Shown here piece after piece: positions 1-35,250 of a stretch of DNA of 36,329 bases (position 1 is the stretch's first letter; each line of letters starts with the position of its first letter). The notes under the pieces are model-generated. The model did not search any database. It had not been told where the DNA came from and saw only the letters and a program-made list of their open reading frames with translations. The DNA comes from an uncultured bacterium (GTDB taxonomy: Bacteria; Cyanobacteriota; Vampirovibrionia; Gastranaerophilales; Gastranaerophilaceae): the NCBI GenBank assembly GCA_902774905.1, contig CACYKF010000016.1, positions 1 through 36,329 on the forward strand. Reading direction: 5' to 3'. The translations under genes were made by a program, and so were the position numbers.

Positions 1-38
1 CACTCATTAAACGGCATTTATTGTTAAAATTTTTTGAA

Positions 39-86
39 AACTTCCGACTAAATATGTCAAACTCGGTATACTTTATCTCAAAATCC
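39..86. repeat. Left copy of diverged 48-bp direct repeat
   Basis: Matches 3839-3885 in the same orientation. Identical blocks are AACTTCCGACT, TATGTCAAACTCG, ATACTTTAT and TCAAAATCC, separated by short differences. With the copy at 3839 it brackets the two-gene cassette 302-3828. Each copy is followed after about 75-80 bp by the same 16-bp T-arm sequence (169-184 and 3960-3975), so the repeated unit is really about 145 bp with a diverged middle. Confidence 0.8.
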
Positions 87-127
87 CTCATACACAGTAC
101 CCTTTTTCATGTGCAAATTCAAAAAAA

Positions 128-301: not shown

Positions 302-2593
302 ATGACCATTTTAGAACTTTTTGCAGAGCACGTCCAAAAAAAGCCTGAACAGATAGCAGTTATATATAAATCTGAAACAAAAATTACAAACAAAAAATTA
401 TGGGAGCTGTCAGGGAAAATTTATGCTTGGTTAAAATCTAAAGGAATAAGCTCAGAAGATTTAGTAATGTACTGCTTGCCGAGAGGCGTTGAACTTTATG
501 CCTGTATTATAGGAACTATAAGAATCGGAGCTGCTTTTGTATTAACAGAAACAGATAACAACCAAAAACGTACTGAATTTATAAAACAAGACTGTAAATG
601 CAAACTTTTTGTAGATGAAGATTGTTGGAAAGAAATTATAAATACTGATTCATTAGATGGGTACGAACCCGTAAATTTACATAATTTATGCTATATAGCT
701 TACACATCAGGTACAACAGGAAACCCGAAAGGGCTTATGCACGAATACGGTTCTTTGGAAAATGCTTGGAAATCAGCACGATATAACGGCAAACCTTTAT
801 TTTCTAATGATGATACATTTCTAGTTATGAGCCCGATGAATTTTGTCTCACTTCCGATAATTATGGCTTTCTCTTGTGCGTTTGGCAATACTATTGCTAT
901 AATGCCTTATTTATACGCAGAAAATGAAGAAGAATTTAATAAATATATTAAAGAAAACAATATAAATTGCGGTTATTTAACACCTTCTTTTATATATAAA
1001 CACAGTGAATGGAAAATTCCTTGGAAAAAATGTATAATCTCAAGCGAACCTGCTGACGGATTATATCTTCCGAATGTTAAGTGCTATAATGCCTATGCTT
1101 CAACAGAATCAGGATGTTTATTAGCAATGTATGAATATACTAATCCCCTAACTCCGCTTCCTGTCGGCAAATCACAATCTGACATTAAACTTTTTATACT
1201 GGATGAAGAAGGAAAAGAAGTTCCGCAAGGTAATATTGGTGAAATATGCTATAAAAACCCTTATGTAAGAGGCTACATTAATCACCCTGAGCTGACAAAT
1301 AAATTAATACAAGATAATATTTTTCATACAAGTGATGCAGGGAAAATAAATGATGAAGGAAATCTTATCGTTCATGGACGCTTAGATCAAATGTTTAAAG
1401 TCAGAGGCTATAGAATTGATACAAACGATATTGCTGATGCCGTTAAAAAAGTAAGTAATTTGAAAAATATTGTAGTAAAGGGGTTTATTTATAAAGATAT
1501 ATCTTCAATTATTGTATTTTATACCGATAATATCAATATTAATGCGGCAATTATGAGAGAAAAACTGCTTAATATACTGCCGGAATATATGATACCAACA
1601 AACTATGTACATCTTGAAGAATTTCCTCTTCTTGAAACCAATAAATTGGATAAGCAAAATCTTTTGCCTCCGGAAGGAAGTTGGGAAAACCTAACAAAAA
1701 TATCTTCACCTAATTTGCAGTTGATTGCAAAAGGAAGAACATCTGACATTTATAATTTTGGCGATAACAAGATTTTGAAGCTTTATCACAGGTCAATTCC
1801 TTTTAATGAGATAAATAAAGAATTAGATTTAATAAATACAGTTAGTTCTTTTGGCGTTCCAACCCCTTATGCCTATGAAATCGTCCGTTCATCAAATAAT
1901 AATTACGGTATTATAATGGATAAATTAAACGGCATAACGATAGAACAAGCCATAAAAAACAATCCAGATAAACAAAAATTTTTAATTGAAAAATTTACTC
2001 AAGCCATAAAAAAACTTCATCGAACACAGGTGCAAGATGAAAGAATACCTGATATTAAGCAGACTTCAATAATGTATGCTAAACAGCTCAATTCTTCATT
2101 TTGTTCCAATGAAGATAAAACGAAAATTATAAAAATTTTTGAAAATATTCCTAATACTAAAAATTTCTTACACGGTGATTATCACACAGGCAATGTAATT
2201 ATAACTGACAACAAAATACAATTTATTGATTTGATGTTTTGTGCAAAAGGGCACCCTGTATTTGATATTTTATGTATGTATTCTCATTATGTATTCTTAC
2301 CATCATTTGATTCTGATGAAGCGTGTATTTTAAATCTGGGTTTAGATAAAACGGGTGCAGAAAAGTTGTATAATCTTTTTATCAAAATGTACTACAACAA
2401 CAAAACAGATAATGAAATTGCAAATGTAAAGGAATACATAAAAGGAGTCCATGCTGCAAGGATATGCCTTGCTGATGTTGCGCTTGCAAATGTATTTTCT
2501 AATGAAATATTGCAAACGGCAAAGAAAAGAGCACTTGCATTTTATGAACAATTAAATAATTTTAAAGCGGATATAATAAGCAGCCTATGTTGA
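302..2593 (+). CDS. Adenylation domain fused to APH/choline-kinase-like phosphotransferase
   Basis: A 763-residue two-domain enzyme. Residues 1-455 are an ANL-superfamily adenylation domain of NRPS/DltA type: core A3 YTSGTTGNPKG at 134-144, A5 NAYASTESG at 263-271, A7 Asp345, A8 GRLDQMFKVRGYRID at 359-373, and the A10 lysine in NKLDK at 447-451. Residues about 472-760 are an APH/choline-kinase fold with Brenner motif HGDYHTGN (624-631) and metal-binding FIDL (641-644). No carrier-protein (PCP) or thioesterase domain is visible, so the acyl- or aminoacyl-AMP must go to a free acceptor or a partner protein in trans. The ATG at 302 is preferred because it opens with the usual adenylation-domain start; an in-frame start at 227 would add 25 unlikely residues. 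The stop overlaps the MFS gene by 7 bp, so the two are probably translationally coupled. Substrates are not predictable by eye. Confidence 0.85.
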   Translation: MTILELFAEHVQKKPEQIAVIYKSETKITNKKLWELSGKIYAWLKSKGISSEDLVMYCLPRGVELYACIIGTIRIGAAFVLTETDNNQKRTEFIKQDCKCKLFVDEDCWKEIINTDSLDGYEPVNLHNLCYIAYTSGTTGNPKGLMHEYGSLENAWKSARYNGKPLFSNDDTFLVMSPMNFVSLPIIMAFSCAFGNTIAIMPYLYAENEEEFNKYIKENNINCGYLTPSFIYKHSEWKIPWKKCIISSEPADGLYLPNVKCYNAYASTESGCLLAMYEYTNPLTPLPVGKSQSDIKLFILDEEGKEVPQGNIGEICYKNPYVRGYINHPELTNKLIQDNIFHTSDAGKINDEGNLIVHGRLDQMFKVRGYRIDTNDIADAVKKVSNLKNIVVKGFIYKDISSIIVFYTDNININAAIMREKLLNILPEYMIPTNYVHLEEFPLLETNKLDKQNLLPPEGSWENLTKISSPNLQLIAKGRTSDIYNFGDNKILKLYHRSIPFNEINKELDLINTVSSFGVPTPYAYEIVRSSNNNYGIIMDKLNGITIEQAIKNNPDKQKFLIEKFTQAIKKLHRTQVQDERIPDIKQTSIMYAKQLNSSFCSNEDKTKIIKIFENIPNTKNFLHGDYHTGNVIITDNKIQFIDLMFCAKGHPVFDILCMYSHYVFLPSFDSDEACILNLGLDKTGAEKLYNLFIKMYYNNKTDNEIANVKEYIKGVHAARICLADVALANVFSNEILQTAKKRALAFYEQLNNFKADIISSLC

Positions 2594-3828
2594 ATAATTT
2601 AATGCAAAAGTATAAAGATAAATTTTATCGTAATTATTTATGGTACACAGCTCTTGAAACAGAATTATTGTTTTTCATTGTATGTGATGTAATGTTTTTA
2701 ACAAAAGTGAAAAATATTTTACCTGACAAAATCTCATTGCTTGTATTTCTTTCACTTGTATTCTCTCTTATCATTCAATATCCGCTGCTGAAATGGATTA
2801 ATAAAATGGGAAACCGTTTTGCAGTACGTATAGGAAGTATTATATTTATGCTTTCTGCAATATTTATAACATTTTCTCCAAATTTTTTAGGGGTTCTTTT
2901 TGGGGGATTTTTAAAATGCGTAGGACATACACTAAATTCTATCGGAACAGCTATTTTAAAGAATAAACTGTCGAAAGATAATTTAGAAGAGCAATATGTA
3001 TCTTATCAGTCTGATGCCAACAGTTTTACATCATTTGTTACTATGTGTACATCTTTAATTTGTGGAGGATTGTTTTATTTTGATGCATACTTGCCAATGC
3101 TTGCCTGTATTGCTTTCAGCATTTTTGGTGTATTTATTTCATTTATAATAACGAAAGAGGATTATAATTCAAAAAATACAGATACAACAAACAATATGCA
3201 ATATTTTACAAAAGATTATGCGCATAAAGCAAATTATTTCAGTATTTTAATTTTTATTTCGTTTGCAATAGTTACAAGCTTATCAGGGATAGGATTATCT
3301 TATGCGAGGATAAATTTTCAGGAAGTATTAACAAACTATAATGCTGAATTTATTGTATCATTGCTTGGCATAATCTCGGCGATTGTCTATTTAATAAGGA
3401 TTTTTTCTAATTTAATAATGAAAAAAATATATGAAAAAATAAGAAATCGTTCGGCTTTTATTTTTTCTAAATTGCTGATAATCGGATTGTTTTTGCAGAT
3501 ACTACCTTGGATACACAATATACACAACTGTAAAATTATATGCTGTATTTTATTATGCAGCGGATATCTTTTGCTTTCTTTTGTCAGAGATCCGTTTATT
3601 ACACTTGTTCAGAATATATGTCTTGAAAACAGCAATAATAAAATTGAGCAGCAAAATGCTCTTGTACTACTCAATGCTTCAAAAAAAACAGGAGCGTTAT
3701 TACTTTCTGCCATATGCACATTATTGCTAAACAGATGGAATGTTGTGAATGTAATTGTACTAATGACTATAATTGCAATGATAAATTACACAATTTTAAA
3801 ATATGATCGAATTTGGGATAATAAATAG
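2587..3828 (+). CDS. MFS-type multidrug or metabolite transporter
   Basis: A 413-residue, strongly hydrophobic protein with about 12 predicted membrane spans, the length and pattern of major facilitator superfamily carriers. The loop after the second span (WINKMGNRFAVRIGS, about 62-76) resembles the MFS motif A loop between TM2 and TM3. Its ATG lies inside the end of the adenylation/kinase gene (7-bp overlap), so both are made from one transcript. It probably exports the product of that enzyme or imports its substrate; direction and cargo are inference. It is the last gene before the right-hand direct repeat. Confidence 0.75.
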   Translation: MLNNLMQKYKDKFYRNYLWYTALETELLFFIVCDVMFLTKVKNILPDKISLLVFLSLVFSLIIQYPLLKWINKMGNRFAVRIGSIIFMLSAIFITFSPNFLGVLFGGFLKCVGHTLNSIGTAILKNKLSKDNLEEQYVSYQSDANSFTSFVTMCTSLICGGLFYFDAYLPMLACIAFSIFGVFISFIITKEDYNSKNTDTTNNMQYFTKDYAHKANYFSILIFISFAIVTSLSGIGLSYARINFQEVLTNYNAEFIVSLLGIISAIVYLIRIFSNLIMKKIYEKIRNRSAFIFSKLLIIGLFLQILPWIHNIHNCKIICCILLCSGYLLLSFVRDPFITLVQNICLENSNNKIEQQNALVLLNASKKTGALLLSAICTLLLNRWNVVNVIVLMTIIAMINYTILKYDRIWDNK

Positions 3829-3838
3829 TGACTAATCG

Positions 3839-3885
3839 AACTTCCGACTTGTATGTCAAACTCGCGATACTTTATGTCAAAATCC
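3839..3885. repeat. Right copy of diverged 48-bp direct repeat
   Basis: Partner of 39-86, about 42 of 47 aligned positions identical. It begins 10 bp after the MFS stop codon and lies just downstream of the 3' end of tRNA-Ala, which is on the opposite strand. It may be an attachment-site remnant or part of a longer diverged duplication. Confidence 0.8.
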
Positions 3886-3946: not shown

Positions 3947-3947
3947 C

Positions 3948-4020
3948 TGGAGGATAGGGGACTCGAACTCCTGACATCCTGCGTGCAAAGCAGGCGCTCT
4001 ACCAACTGAGCTAATCCCCC
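3948..4020 (-). tRNA. tRNA-Ala (anticodon TGC)
   Basis: A complete 73-nt cloverleaf on the minus strand. The acceptor arm GGGGGAT pairs with ATCCTCC, the D-arm is AGCTCAGTTGGTAGAGC, the anticodon stem-loop is CCTGCTTTGCACGCAGG with anticodon TGC, and the T-arm contains GTTCGAGTC with discriminator A73. CCA is not encoded; the next bases are GAT. The T-arm sequence recurs at 169-184 on the far side of the adjacent cassette. Confidence 0.95.
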
Positions 4021-4112
4021 AAGTTGTCTTGGGCGAACAGTCTTTCAACCGCTCGTATTATTCATTCTACATGAAAAATTTTTTTTGTAAAGAGGTAACT
4101 TAAAATTTTGTA

Positions 4113-21205: not shown

Positions 21206-22900
21206 ATGACAAACTTCACACCCGAAAAATGTAAACAAATAGCACTTGCAAGACTTGATGTGGTTCACAAGTGGCTTGAATTTAGAAAGCAATCTCAAAA
21301 TAAACTTCAAGCCGATTATGATTTTGTAAAATTACATAACACATCAAATTCACACTTGTTTGAAATTTTAGGAAAAATATCTCGCGGAAGTTTGCACCGT
21401 TGGTATGCTATGTTAAACGGAACGGAAGATTATATGAAACTTTTGCCGCAGTATAAATATTCAACTGTTTGGGAATACCGAACAGTTCTCAATGATGAAG
21501 AAATAAAAATCTTTATGGGATTGCTTTTGCATCCTAACAGATTATCTATCGGTAAGGCTATAGCATTAACAAAATATAGATTAAAGGAGCAGGGGCAAAA
21601 TTTTATTCCGGCGGATATCACATTTAGAAGGTACGCAAAATGGTTCAAGGATAATAATTACGATAAATGGATTCTTGCTCGTGACGGAGAAAAAGCACTA
21701 TCGGATAAAGTTGAACCATACATGAAACGTGATGCAAGCTTGCTTGAAGTCGGGGACATTCTTGTCGCGGACGGACATAAATTAGCATTTCAGGTAATAA
21801 ATCCGTTTACAGGAAAACCCTGCAGAGCAACATTAGTGGGATTTTTGGATTGGAAATCTACAGCACTCGTTGGATATGAAATAATGCTTGAAGAAAATAC
21901 GCAGTGTATTGCAAGTGCTTTGCGTAATTCAATAATTAATCTTGATATGATACCCAAAGTTGTTTATCAAGATAATGGCAGAGCTTTTCGGGCTAAGTAT
22001 TTTACAGATGATAAAGGATTCAGCGAACTCGGTTTTCAGGGATTGTATTCAAAACTGGGTATAGAAACAGTTTTTGCAAGACCGTATAATGCGAGAGCAA
22101 AAGTTATTGAAAGATTCTTTAAAGAATTTCAGGAAGGTTTTGAAAAACTTTTGCCGAGTTATATCGGAAGCAGTATTCAGAATAAACCTGCTTATATGAT
22201 GAGAAATGAGAAGTTTCATAAAAATCTACATAATGAATTTATTCCAACTATTGAAGAAACAATAAAAATGATTAATATGTGGCTGAGTTTCAAGAATTCT
22301 CAACCTTGTCCGAATGCTCCGGATAAAACAGTTACGGAAGTTTTATCTGAAAGGAAACGACAAAATATTGATATAAATACGCTTGACGATTTGATGCTTG
22401 CAACTGAAGTCAAAACAATTCAGCGAAACGGTATAAGATTTTTGAATTGTGACTATTTTGATGAAAGGTTGTACGGATTCAAGAGTAAAGTCCTGATTAA
22501 ATACAATATTTTTGATCTGACAAGTATTAAAGTTTACACCCCAAAAGGCGAATATCTTTGCACCGCAGAAAGAGTAACAGAAACTCATCCGATGGCAAAA
22601 TTACTCGGTAATGTCAAAGATTATGAAGATTACAAACAAAAAATTGTTAAACAACGGCAATTAAAAAAGAAAACAGTTGAATCTGTCAAAAAATATCTTC
22701 AATGTGAGGATATAAAGTTACTTGAAACACAAAATAAAAAACCAATTGTTCAATGTGCGTTTAAAACTAGTTCAAATGGTGTTTACAAGAGTTTTAAAAA
22801 TAATGCTGATAAATATGAGTATTTAATAACTCATAATCCGCAAGATGAGTGGATAGAGCAATTTAAGCAAACAAAGGAGTATCGATTATTGTATGAATAA
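21206..22900 (+). CDS. Mu-type DDE transposase (MuA/TnsB-like)
   Basis: A 564-residue transposase. An N-terminal helical DNA-binding region (about 1-170) is followed by an RNase H-fold catalytic core: Asp189 (ILVADGHK), Asp256 (VVYQDNGRA) and Glu302 (AKVIERFF), in the order and surroundings of the rve/MuA family. A C-terminal beta-barrel-like and basic region (about 400-564) should contact the ATPase. Mu-like enzymes cut and join element ends into target DNA. The next gene overlaps by 8 bp and encodes the matching ATPase. GTGAGGTAAC precedes the ATG, with the TTGCAC repeats upstream. Confidence 0.9.
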   Translation: MTNFTPEKCKQIALARLDVVHKWLEFRKQSQNKLQADYDFVKLHNTSNSHLFEILGKISRGSLHRWYAMLNGTEDYMKLLPQYKYSTVWEYRTVLNDEEIKIFMGLLLHPNRLSIGKAIALTKYRLKEQGQNFIPADITFRRYAKWFKDNNYDKWILARDGEKALSDKVEPYMKRDASLLEVGDILVADGHKLAFQVINPFTGKPCRATLVGFLDWKSTALVGYEIMLEENTQCIASALRNSIINLDMIPKVVYQDNGRAFRAKYFTDDKGFSELGFQGLYSKLGIETVFARPYNARAKVIERFFKEFQEGFEKLLPSYIGSSIQNKPAYMMRNEKFHKNLHNEFIPTIEETIKMINMWLSFKNSQPCPNAPDKTVTEVLSERKRQNIDINTLDDLMLATEVKTIQRNGIRFLNCDYFDERLYGFKSKVLIKYNIFDLTSIKVYTPKGEYLCTAERVTETHPMAKLLGNVKDYEDYKQKIVKQRQLKKKTVESVKKYLQCEDIKLLETQNKKPIVQCAFKTSSNGVYKSFKNNADKYEYLITHNPQDEWIEQFKQTKEYRLLYE

Positions 22901-23573
22901 GATTTTTGTAAAAACGCAAAACGTCAAAAACTTTATCGGACTTGTTGAGAATCTGATTAACAAACCCAAAAATATTCCGAAAATGGGACTTGTTTATGGT
23001 GAGCCCGGACTTGGAAAATCGCAAACAGCATTGTGGCTTGCGTGCAAGTATGACGGAATATATTTAAGGGCATCAAACCTTATGACGGGCAGATGGTTGC
23101 TTGAGGAAATGGTTAAAGAACTTGATGAAATTCCGAGATTTTTGACTTTGGATAATTTCAATATCGTGGTTAAAAAGCTGAAACAAAATCCACAGTTGAT
23201 TTTTATCGATGAGATTGATTACCTTATGAATAACTACAAAACCATTGAAACTCTAAGGGATATTTACGACGAAACCGGCTGCCCGATAGTTTTTATCGGA
23301 ATGGGATTGGCTCACAGAAAACTTGAAAGATATAAACATTTGTATGACAGGTTTTCAGAAATTTTAAAATTTGAAACCTTTGGCGTAAATGATTTAAGCC
23401 AAATTATAAACCAATTGTCTGAAATCTCATTTACTTCTGATTCAATTGAATATATCCACACGAAATACAATAGATTCAGGCAAATTGTTCAATTAATAAA
23501 TCAAATGGAAACATTTGCCAAAGACAATAATTTAACCGAAATAAATATGGAGGTCATAAGTCAAATAATATGA
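22893..23573 (+). CDS. MuB/IstB/TniB-like AAA+ transposition ATPase
   Basis: A 226-residue AAA+ ATPase. Walker A is GEPGLGKS (36-43), Walker B LIFIDEID (102-109), and a sensor-1-like strand IVFIGMG lies near 133-139. Length and pairing with a DDE transposase match MuB/IstB/TniB proteins, which bind target DNA with ATP, activate the transposase and confer target immunity. It overlaps the transposase gene by 8 bp and the following gene by 4 bp (ATGA), so all three are translated from one message. Confidence 0.9.
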   Translation: MNKIFVKTQNVKNFIGLVENLINKPKNIPKMGLVYGEPGLGKSQTALWLACKYDGIYLRASNLMTGRWLLEEMVKELDEIPRFLTLDNFNIVVKKLKQNPQLIFIDEIDYLMNNYKTIETLRDIYDETGCPIVFIGMGLAHRKLERYKHLYDRFSEILKFETFGVNDLSQIINQLSEISFTSDSIEYIHTKYNRFRQIVQLINQMETFAKDNNLTEINMEVISQII

Positions 23574-32814: not shown

Positions 32815-32875
32815 TTCTGAAACAAAAAATTTTTCACAAAATGTATCCTCAAGTTATCATCTTGAAGAGGTATAA
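32807..32875 (+). other. Expressed start of hsdS, out of frame in this orientation (23 codons)
   Basis: GTG at 32807 has an excellent Shine-Dalgarno AAGGAGG (32795-32801) and overlaps the previous stop. It reads MTNSETKNFSQNVSSSYHLE through the left inverted repeat, then meets TAA at 32873-32875. Inversion at the 22-bp repeats would join it in frame to the hsdS now lying on the minus strand. This is the real translation start of the locus. Confidence 0.85.
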
Positions 32876-33980
32876 TGACGAGTGGGTTGAAAAAAGAATA
32901 GAAAAGGTTTTAAAAATTAAGCACGGAAAAGATCAAAAGGCAATTGAGAACAATGATGGAATATATCCGATTTTGGCAACAAGCGGGGAAATAGGACGCT
33001 CAAATACTTTTTTATGGGATAAACCTTGCGTTTTAATAGGAAGAAAAGGAACAATTAATAAACCACAGTATATGGATACTCCGTTTTGGACTGTTGATAC
33101 ATTATTCTATTCGGATGTTTTTCAAAACAATAATGCAAAATATTTATATTATTTATTTAATACAATAAATTGGAAAAAATATGATGAGTCAACAGGGGTA
33201 CCAAGTTTAAGTGCTAAAACTATTGAGAGAATAAAAATTAAAATATCTAACAATCTTCGAGAGCAAGAAAAAATAGCATCTTTTTTGACATTAATTGATA
33301 AGAAAATTGAAAAACAAAAAGAGCTTGTTGAACTCCTCAAGAAGTATAAAAGAGGATTGTTTTCAGCAATATTCAGCCAAAAATTGAAATTCAAAGACGA
33401 TAACGGAAACGATTATCCGGCATGGGAAGAAAAAAGATTGGGGGATATTTGTAAAATTGTAGGAGGTGGAACTCCAGATACTAATAATGTTAAATATTGG
33501 GGTGATGATATCAATTGGTTTACACCAACAGAAATAATAAAAAAATATGCAGATAGCAGTAATAGAAAGATTTCTAGACTAGGTTTATTAAAAAGTTCTG
33601 CCAAAATATTACCAATAGGTACTGTATTATTGACTACTCGTGCGACCTTAGGAGAAATGTCAATTTTGAGCATTGAAGCTACAACTAATCAAGGTTTTCA
33701 ATCACTGATACCTGTTAAAGATGAGGCATCAAGTGAATTTATATATTATTGCCAACCAATTATAAAACATTTTTGCTATAAATATGCCAACGGTTCAACA
33801 TTTTTAGAAATAAGCAAGCAGACTTTAGCAAAATTAAAATTAATGATACCAAATAAAGATGAACAAAATAAAATATCAGATTTTTTATCAAAATTTGATA
33901 ATAAAATCCAACAAGAAGAATGTATATTAAGTAATTTAAAAACTTACAAAAAGGGGTTGTTACAGCAGATGTTTATATAA
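32841..33980 (+). CDS. hsdS: Type I specificity subunit, frame-disconnected from its start (allele A)
   Basis: A 379-codon HsdS with two target-recognition half-domains. TRD1 spans about 10-145 (DEWVEKRIEKVLKIKHGKDQ), followed by conserved helix KIASFLTLIDKKIEKQKEL, the spacer FKDDNGNDYPAWEEK, TRD2 about 200-345, and a final helix ending KKGLLQQMFI. The ATG at 32841 has no Shine-Dalgarno. Its frame differs from the operon's GTG start at 32807, which terminates at 32875. The usual N-terminal PKLRFKG lead-in is missing here, though present in allele B, consistent with a small deletion next to the inverted repeat. I infer that this allele is silent or weakly expressed as sequenced. It converges on allele B with an 8-bp overlap. 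Confidence 0.88.
   Translation: MYPQVIILKRYNDEWVEKRIEKVLKIKHGKDQKAIENNDGIYPILATSGEIGRSNTFLWDKPCVLIGRKGTINKPQYMDTPFWTVDTLFYSDVFQNNNAKYLYYLFNTINWKKYDESTGVPSLSAKTIERIKIKISNNLREQEKIASFLTLIDKKIEKQKELVELLKKYKRGLFSAIFSQKLKFKDDNGNDYPAWEEKRLGDICKIVGGGTPDTNNVKYWGDDINWFTPTEIIKKYADSSNRKISRLGLLKSSAKILPIGTVLLTTRATLGEMSILSIEATTNQGFQSLIPVKDEASSEFIYYCQPIIKHFCYKYANGSTFLEISKQTLAKLKLMIPNKDEQNKISDFLSKFDNKIQQEECILSNLKTYKKGLLQQMFI
32847..32868 (+). repeat. Outer inverted repeat, left (22 bp)
   Basis: Perfect inverse complement of 35225-35246. Its core TCAAGTTATCATCTTGA has 5-bp dyad arms (TCAAG/CTTGA) around a 7-bp centre, the usual form of a tyrosine-recombinase crossover site. It encodes SSYHLE in both alleles. 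Confidence 0.92.
33309..33434 (+). repeat. Inner inverted repeat, left (126 bp)
   Basis: Matches the reverse complement of 34528-34653 at 125 of 126 positions; the single difference is at 33360. It covers the conserved helix and spacer between the two target-recognition domains. Identity falls off sharply on both sides, as expected for homology maintained by recombination. Confidence 0.93.
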
Positions 33981-33982
33981 AC
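33971..33982. repeat. 12-bp palindrome at the convergent hsdS stop codons
   Basis: GTTTATATAAAC is a perfect palindrome that supplies both stop codons of the overlapping convergent alleles (33978-33980 and 33973-33975). It is nearly central in the invertible cassette. Confidence 0.8.
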
Positions 33983-35250
33983 AGTTTTTGTAAAAGACCT
34001 TTTTTATAATCATTATAAGAATCTAATAAAATATTCTCTTTTTCTATAATATTATCTAACTTTGATATTATATTTGCAATTTTTACTTGTTCATCATATA
34101 CAGGGCAAGAAAATTTATAGTTTGAATATTCTTTTGCATTTATTCCCGGTTGTCCAGATCGAGCTGACATGATTGAAACCCATTTTTTATAATTAAAAGT
34201 TTGGGTTATATAAAAAATAAAATTACTACAATATTCGTTTTTTATAGAAAATTTTATTAAGAATCCTGCAAAATACATCTTTCCGTCATTTTCATTATAT
34301 AAATATGTCTTTCCTGTACTTGCCCCTGTTCTGGCAAATAATAAGTCATTAATTTTTAACTTGTAATCATCTGATAAAACACAATCTGGGGAAACGATAT
34401 CCAAATTATTAAATTTACCTGTAGTTTCATCAATATCAGTAATTCTGATATATTTATTTTCTCCGTCATAATCTTTTGATGCAGCATTTAAGCCATAAGA
34501 TATATTGCCTGTTACTTCTCCGAGAGATTTTTCTTCCCATGCCGGATAATCGTTTCCGTTATCGTCTTTGAATTTCAATTTTTGGCTGAATATTGCTGAA
34601 AGCAATCCTCTTTTATACTTCTTGAGGAGTTCAACAAGCTCTTTTTGTTTTTCGATTTTCTTATCAATTAATGTTAAAAATGATGCTATCTTTTTCTGTT
34701 CTTCATATCTTGGTAAATTTAGTTTTATATTTGTATAATCTTCATATGAAATATTTAATAAACCATCCATACGAACGCTTGAAGACACTAATTTTCTCAA
34801 TTCTCGTTCAAGTAATTTATTATTTAAATATAAGGCAATATATGGAGCATAATTATTTTTATCTATTTTAAAGCAATGATAGACATAGGGAATACGTGCC
34901 TCATCAACGTCTATTTGAAAACAACAACCGTACGGTTTTGCTTTTGAAGCACCATGATTATATGCAAGCTCACCTTTATGTATAATGGTATATTTTGTCA
35001 AACTTTTACCTGCATTATCTCGCGAATATTTTTCTGATTGCATTATAAAGCCACAATTAGCAGAAATCATCATGATAGGTGCTGTAGAATCAGAATTAAC
35101 CCTTTTTATTCGAGTAGATATATTTTTTAATGGTATTTTATCATAATTATAGGTATACCCTTTAAAGCGGAGTTTTGGGACATTGCGTGCGTTGGCACAT
35201 GTATTTTTATTACATTTACCCCTGTCTTCAAGATGATAACTTGAGGTCAA
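33973..35250 (-). CDS. hsdS: Silent type I specificity subunit, complete cassette (allele B)
   Basis: A 425-codon frame on the minus strand from a TTG at 35250 with no Shine-Dalgarno before it. It carries the lead-in NVPKLRFKG, a TRD1 unlike that of allele A, the conserved helix and spacer, a second distinct TRD2 and a closing helix ending KKGLLQKLFI. After inversion at the outer repeats, the GTG at 32807 would read straight into it, giving a 437-residue HsdS of normal size. As sequenced it is a storage copy. It overlaps allele A tail-to-tail. Confidence 0.9.
   Translation of the reverse strand: MTSSYHLEDRGKCNKNTCANARNVPKLRFKGYTYNYDKIPLKNISTRIKRVNSDSTAPIMMISANCGFIMQSEKYSRDNAGKSLTKYTIIHKGELAYNHGASKAKPYGCCFQIDVDEARIPYVYHCFKIDKNNYAPYIALYLNNKLLERELRKLVSSSVRMDGLLNISYEDYTNIKLNLPRYEEQKKIASFLTLIDKKIEKQKELVELLKKYKRGLLSAIFSQKLKFKDDNGNDYPAWEEKSLGEVTGNISYGLNAASKDYDGENKYIRITDIDETTGKFNNLDIVSPDCVLSDDYKLKINDLLFARTGASTGKTYLYNENDGKMYFAGFLIKFSIKNEYCSNFIFYITQTFNYKKWVSIMSARSGQPGINAKEYSNYKFSCPVYDEQVKIANIISKLDNIIEKENILLDSYNDYKKGLLQKLFI
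34528..34653 (-). repeat. Inner inverted repeat, right (126 bp)
   Basis: Partner of 33309-33434 within allele B, 125 of 126 identical in inverse orientation. Exchange here would give hybrid HsdS proteins with TRD1 of one allele and TRD2 of the other. Confidence 0.93.
35225..35246 (-). repeat. Outer inverted repeat, right (22 bp)
   Basis: Partner of 32847-32868. It lies 51 bp before the start codon of the recombinase gene, so the enzyme gene is immediately outside the segment it presumably inverts. Confidence 0.92.

Follow-up and report, generated by a model that had tools for sequence, protein, structure and literature searches.

A rare fusion of an adenylation domain and an APH-type kinase encoded next to an exporter in gut bacteria

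What could be the role of an enzyme that joins an adenylation (A) domain to a phosphotransferase, ends without a carrier protein and is encoded next to an exporter? The question is raised by positions 302 to 3828 of the window analyzed here, a stretch of 36,329 nucleotides from a genome of the Gastranaerophilaceae (contig CACYKF010000016.1), where an earlier, sequence-only reading had described such a fusion. The range was found to hold two genes, the fusion gene and that of an MFS transporter (Table 1). The existence of the fusion was confirmed, as both Pfam domains scored above their cut-offs in a single protein: AMP-binding (PF00501) at residues 7-323 (4.4e-42, 144.7 bits vs. a cut-off of 29.9) and APH (PF01636) at residues 472-664 (1.2e-16, 61.7 bits vs. 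23.2). The A domain, with motifs A3 (YTSGTTGNPKG, nt 701-733), A5, A7, A8 and A10 (Lys448), belongs to the ANL superfamily of AMP-binding enzymes, while the kinase was assigned to the APH/phosphotransferase family PF01636 based on its score, its APH fold, and the HxDxxxxN motif with the following Asp (HGDYHTGN at nt 2171-2194 and FIDL at nt 2222-2233). When 10 homologues from several phyla were aligned, residues T135-G140, K143, Y265, T268, E269, D345, R360 and K448 of the A domain, and K493, E507, H624, D626, N631 and D643 of the kinase, were invariant, so that both active sites look as intact as had been proposed. Also in line with the earlier description, no PP-binding, thioesterase, condensation or reductase domain was detected by Pfam in the fusion gene; the carrier (PCP) that an NRPS module requires in cis is thus absent, with no PF00550 match in the fusion protein. 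In the region aligned with nt 274-304 of the window, compared among seven Gastranaerophilales copies, the ATG at position 302 was present only in the window and in one other (L034), the remaining five having AAG, while an in-frame ATT six bases upstream of it, downstream of a purine-rich stretch, was kept in all seven and may be the translation start.

Table 1. Features of the fusion cassette and its flanks in the window.
Feature	Position (nt)	Strand	Remarks
A-APH fusion gene	302..2593	+	763 aa; start possibly ATT at 296
Adenylation (A) domain	302..1681	+	residues 1-460; motifs A3-A10; pocket V-S-I-Y-I-S-A-C-L-K (GrsA positions 235 to 517)
APH-type kinase domain	1709..2590	+	residues 470-763; Lys493, Glu507, HGDYHTGN, FIDL
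MFS transporter	2587..3828	+	413 aa; overlaps the 3' end of the fusion gene by 7 nt
Direct repeat, left copy	53..86	+	brackets the cassette
Direct repeat, right copy	3852..3885	+	91% identical to the left copy
tRNA-Ala (TGC)	3947..4021	-	adjoins the cassette; possible integration landmark

The fusion is rare. Among 98 genomes from relatives (45 of the same genus besides the window's own), it was found only in that of the window. A scan of one genome per species revealed it in other Gastranaerophilales MAGs (84-99% identity), in Bifidobacterium panos DSM 109963 (58% by tblastn), and in rumen and gut Clostridia (about 50-54%). It was present in one of 111 bifidobacteria, and no further full-length copy appeared in even samples, about 390 genomes each, of the class and of the family to which one clostridial host (L045) belongs. 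A copy in a Spirochaetaceae MAG (L047 7935-9620) was a 561-aa ORF ending inside the kinase, had no adjoining transporter, and is likely decaying. Such patchy presence at such identities indicates horizontal transfer. Estimates of dN/dS for six pairs, some of them within Gastranaerophilales, ranged from 0.08 to 0.23 in the A half and from 0.13 to 0.31 in the kinase half; both halves are under purifying selection, and both activities seem to be needed. These values, together with the intact state of the fusion in other phyla, in copies 50-59% identical to that of the window, argue that the architecture is not a product of chance.

The flanks of the other Gastranaerophilales copies differed from those of the window. 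Codon usage, considered as a possible mark of foreign origin, matched that of the neighboring genes, making a very recent arrival from a GC-rich host unlikely. One and the same variant of the flanking repeat is present at the C4 contig end (183772-183804) and close to the beginning of contig C16 (54-86; window 1-99), and the two contigs may join at this repeat. Elsewhere in the window, a Mu-type transposase and a TniB-like ATPase were located at 21206-23573; similar transposase ORFs were also observed near the fusion cassette in two other loci (L035 and L050). Two opposed type I restriction specificity (hsdS) genes at 32841-35250 had in common a 175-nt inverted repeat (33260-33434 and 34528-34702, 95%) and adjoined hsdR- and hsdM-like ORFs and a tyrosine integrase (35295 onwards), a locus that looks like an invertible, phase-variable type I system.

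Matches of the A domain in NCBIfam and PDB were to NRPS adenylation domains and DltA. The best PDB match, the linear gramicidin synthetase LgrA (6mfz / 6mfy), spanned the A domain in full, with its C-terminal subdomain and motifs A3-A10; unlike LgrA, the fusion has no PCP, condensation or thioesterase domain, carries a kinase instead, and has Val in place of Asp235 and Ser in place of the A5 proline. In NRPS A domains, Asp235 normally holds the alpha-amino group of the substrate. Mapped onto GrsA by sequence alignment rather than on a structure model, the pocket of the complete fusion copies reads V235, S/A236, I239, Y278, I/V299, S301, A/C/T322, C330, L/M331 and K517, and is almost fixed among them, while that of the A-PCP-C relatives described below is variable. 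Instead of the Asp expected of an A domain for alpha-amino acids, Val aligned with position 235 in all complete copies. Small neutral residues replace this Asp in A domains for alpha-hydroxy acids, and in the alpha-keto-acid domain StsA a hydrophobic residue replaces it and Met replaces the proline; McyG also has Val for Asp235, yet takes L-Phe (reviewed in PMC11253843). The two substitutions in the fusion make a non-amino-acid substrate likely, so that its substrate is probably other than an ordinary amino acid, and the earlier suggestion to look for it among the amino acids is not favored by the predicted pocket. Two specific candidates were not retained. Val235 and the loss of the A5 proline agree with non-amino acids in general and do not single out an alpha-keto acid; for betaine, for which there is a precedent, the mapped pocket has no evident aromatic cage.

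Within clostridial hosts, the closest sequences outside the fusion family were, for the A domain, A-PCP-C proteins of about 980-1000 aa and, for the kinase, STAS-kinase fusions of about 390-404 aa. In a tree of A domains, arbitrarily rooted with two A-PCP-C proteins, the fusions formed one group separate from these proteins. From these relationships, it looks as if PCP-C had been swapped for a kinase. The A-PCP-C proteins of Lachnospiraceae and other Clostridia (e.g. L052 6594-9584) share 31-37% identity with the fusion over the A domain, most of them also lack Asp235, and one has a MATE gene directly after it; they differ in having PCP and condensation domains instead of the kinase, and in pockets that vary, that of the fusion being nearly fixed. 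The genes around them include MATE, STAS, RsbW-like and SpoIIE-like genes. A similar set (serine phosphatases, an anti-sigma factor antagonist and MatE) was described in 2010 in the NRPS cluster of the rumen methanogen Methanobrevibacter ruminantium (PMC2812497). The nearest kinases, the STAS-APH fusions and the NCBIfam paralog family TIGR02172, have in common with that of the window the HGDxHxGN motif and the GHPVFD region, but in the STAS-APH proteins the kinase is joined to STAS and not to an A domain, and the window kinase, at 106 bits, or 109.3 bits in the search of the genome, against a curated cut-off of 228.2, falls outside TIGR02172. Genes for STAS-APH fusions were observed in four loci (L056 6791-8005, L057, L058 and L059), near the ends of, or beside, other kinase genes; no function was found on record for these regulator-kinase fusions.

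The neighboring transporter matched PF07690 with 49.2 bits (cut-off 33.4), and the overlap of the two genes implies that they are probably translated together. The MFS gene follows the fusion in Gastranaerophilales and in three Clostridiales loci and precedes it in B. panos, while a MATE gene follows it in the remaining complete clostridial loci. An MFS or an unrelated MATE transporter thus adjoins the fusion in nearly all complete loci, and the coupling to an exporter noted from the window alone holds as a conserved function. Since two unrelated pumps occupy this position, it seems to be export as such, and not a particular pump, that counts. In locus L033, most of the MFS gene has been deleted and the fusion gene is still open. 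The MATE transporters beside the clostridial fusions (L040-L049) have about 560-600 aa and a C-terminal tail resembling an RsbW-type HATPase; of two tails tested, that of L048 matched HATPase_c_2 at 6e-4, below the Pfam cut-off, and that of L041 gave no match. A pump-regulator fusion is possible.

A search for free carrier proteins, as the earlier reading had advised, yielded a single PF00550 protein in the genome of the window: AcpP, encoded beside FabF and with fatty acid synthesis genes as its only neighbors. L033 and L035 had one matching protein per genome, and the profile also gave matches in 11 of 14 controls; there was no match in the B. panos genome. A divergent carrier could escape the profile. 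No carrier gene adjoined any of the fusion copies examined. A dedicated carrier acting in trans appears unlikely, although AcpP itself may play this part.

Based on these results, the locus is tentatively explained as a horizontally spread two-gene unit, in which a carrier-free acyl-AMP ligase and kinase makes a phosphorylated small molecule for export. The A domain would activate a carboxylic acid, in which a free alpha-amino group is most likely lacking, as the acyl-adenylate. With no dedicated carrier protein found, the acyl group is proposed to move straight onto a small acceptor in solution; the fused kinase would place a phosphate on a hydroxyl of this acceptor or of the product, and the adjoining pump (MFS or MATE) would export the phosphorylated product. 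There is a precedent for carrier-free acyl transfer in the amide bond synthetases, such as McbA and ShABS: these ANL enzymes activate an acid as its acyl-AMP and then couple it with an amine in solution (PMC10804368). In contrast to the fusion, they have no kinase. Direct transfer, the action of both halves on one molecule and the identity of the pump cargo with the product are what we infer for the fusion. The explanation is weakened by the example of McyG, by the open fusion gene of L033 despite the loss of most of its MFS gene, by the mapping of the pocket by alignment only, and by the chance that a divergent carrier or AcpP takes part. In a more general form, the cassette probably makes and ships out a small molecule. 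The earlier reading, in which the protein could make, modify or detoxify a small molecule by an undescribed route, is supported in part, namely in the intact look of both active sites, the lack of a carrier in cis and of any dedicated one found in trans, the conserved exporter, and the absence of a characterized protein with this domain order from the sources searched; no support was obtained for adenylation of an amino acid, for an antibiotic action or for a particular product.

An alternative, judged unlikely, is that the A domain acts as an acyl-CoA ligase making the CoA thioester of a hydroxy acid, the hydroxyl of which is then phosphorylated by the kinase. Such a role would agree with a pocket suited to a non-amino acid, and it has a documented analogue in LvaE and LvaA of Pseudomonas putida, an AMP-forming ligase and an APH-type kinase that act on the same hydroxy acid in levulinate breakdown; the kinase domains of ACAD10 and ACAD11, fused to another acyl-active enzyme, act on 4-hydroxyacyl-CoA (PMC11342911). 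The likeness to LvaE and LvaA is one of activity; these are separate proteins of a breakdown pathway without an exporter. No ACAD or LvaA chain was among the structure matches listed for the kinase model, although kinship may exist. Moreover, the nearest matches of the A domain are NRPS domains and DltA, not LvaE-like ligases, no acyl-CoA dehydrogenase is fused or adjacent, and a conserved exporter is ill-suited to breakdown.

Resistance or detoxification, in which the kinase, with or without the A domain, would modify an incoming antibiotic to be removed by the pump, appears still less probable. The full-length AlphaFold2 model of the fusion was poor (pLDDT 66), but the kinase alone was modeled well (pLDDT 87), and its best structure match was APH(3')-Ia (4ej7; Z 19.0, rmsd 4.1 over 233 residues, 15% identity), followed by other aminoglycoside kinases, choline/ethanolamine kinases, LicA and amicoumacin kinase. 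The modeled fold suggests a small-molecule kinase and does not tell its substrate. The predicted proximity to aminoglycoside kinases, the neighboring MFS or MATE pump and the horizontal spread among gut bacteria would be consistent with resistance. However, identity to the structurally matched aminoglycoside kinases is only 10-18%, the closest kinases in sequence are the STAS fusions and not resistance genes, and the A half is conserved to the same degree as the kinase half. The A domain is not known to play a role in resistance.

That the A domain acts in trans, loading AcpP or a divergent carrier, with the kinase modifying the loaded acyl group, is more doubtful again: the retained A8 and A10 motifs of carrier-loading A domains, the presence of AcpP and the A-PCP-C relatives would fit, against which stand the lack of a carrier gene next to any copy examined, the lack of a PF00550 match in B. 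panos, and the restriction of the AcpP neighborhood to fatty acid synthesis. Least of all is it to be expected that the fusion produces or alters a signal within a partner-switch circuit of the STAS / RsbW / SpoIIE type, as might be read from the STAS domains fused to the closest kinases, the HATPase-like tail of the clostridial MATE transporters, the regulatory genes adjoining the related A-PCP-C loci and the similar set in the methanogen, since no STAS, HATPase or phosphatase gene is present in the window or B. panos cassettes and the fusion itself has no STAS domain by Pfam.

A characterized homologue with this order of domains, which the earlier reading had named as the result contrary to it, did not turn up among PDB sequences, in Pfam or NCBIfam, in plasmid and phage records, or in the open-access literature searched. 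Matches in the plasmid and phage records were confined to other NRPS A domains, with none that combined both domains at good identity; a scan of viral contigs gave no relative of the fusion, PADLOC gave no match to a listed anti-phage system, and no description of an A-APH fusion was found in paper searches. Within these sources, the A-APH protein is a new architecture.

Returning to the proposed carrier-free ligase and kinase, the near-invariant pocket suggests one substrate common to Gastranaerophilales, Bifidobacterium and Clostridia. The fusion might, although this is held with more doubt than the explanation itself, represent a new class of bifunctional, carrier-independent ligase-kinases, in which one polypeptide with an NRPS-type A domain freed from the assembly line builds and phosphorylates a secreted small molecule, and which has spread horizontally among gut bacteria of several phyla. 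If so, a unit of one enzyme and one pump would yield a gut metabolite, and rules that seek complete NRPS modules may miss such clusters.
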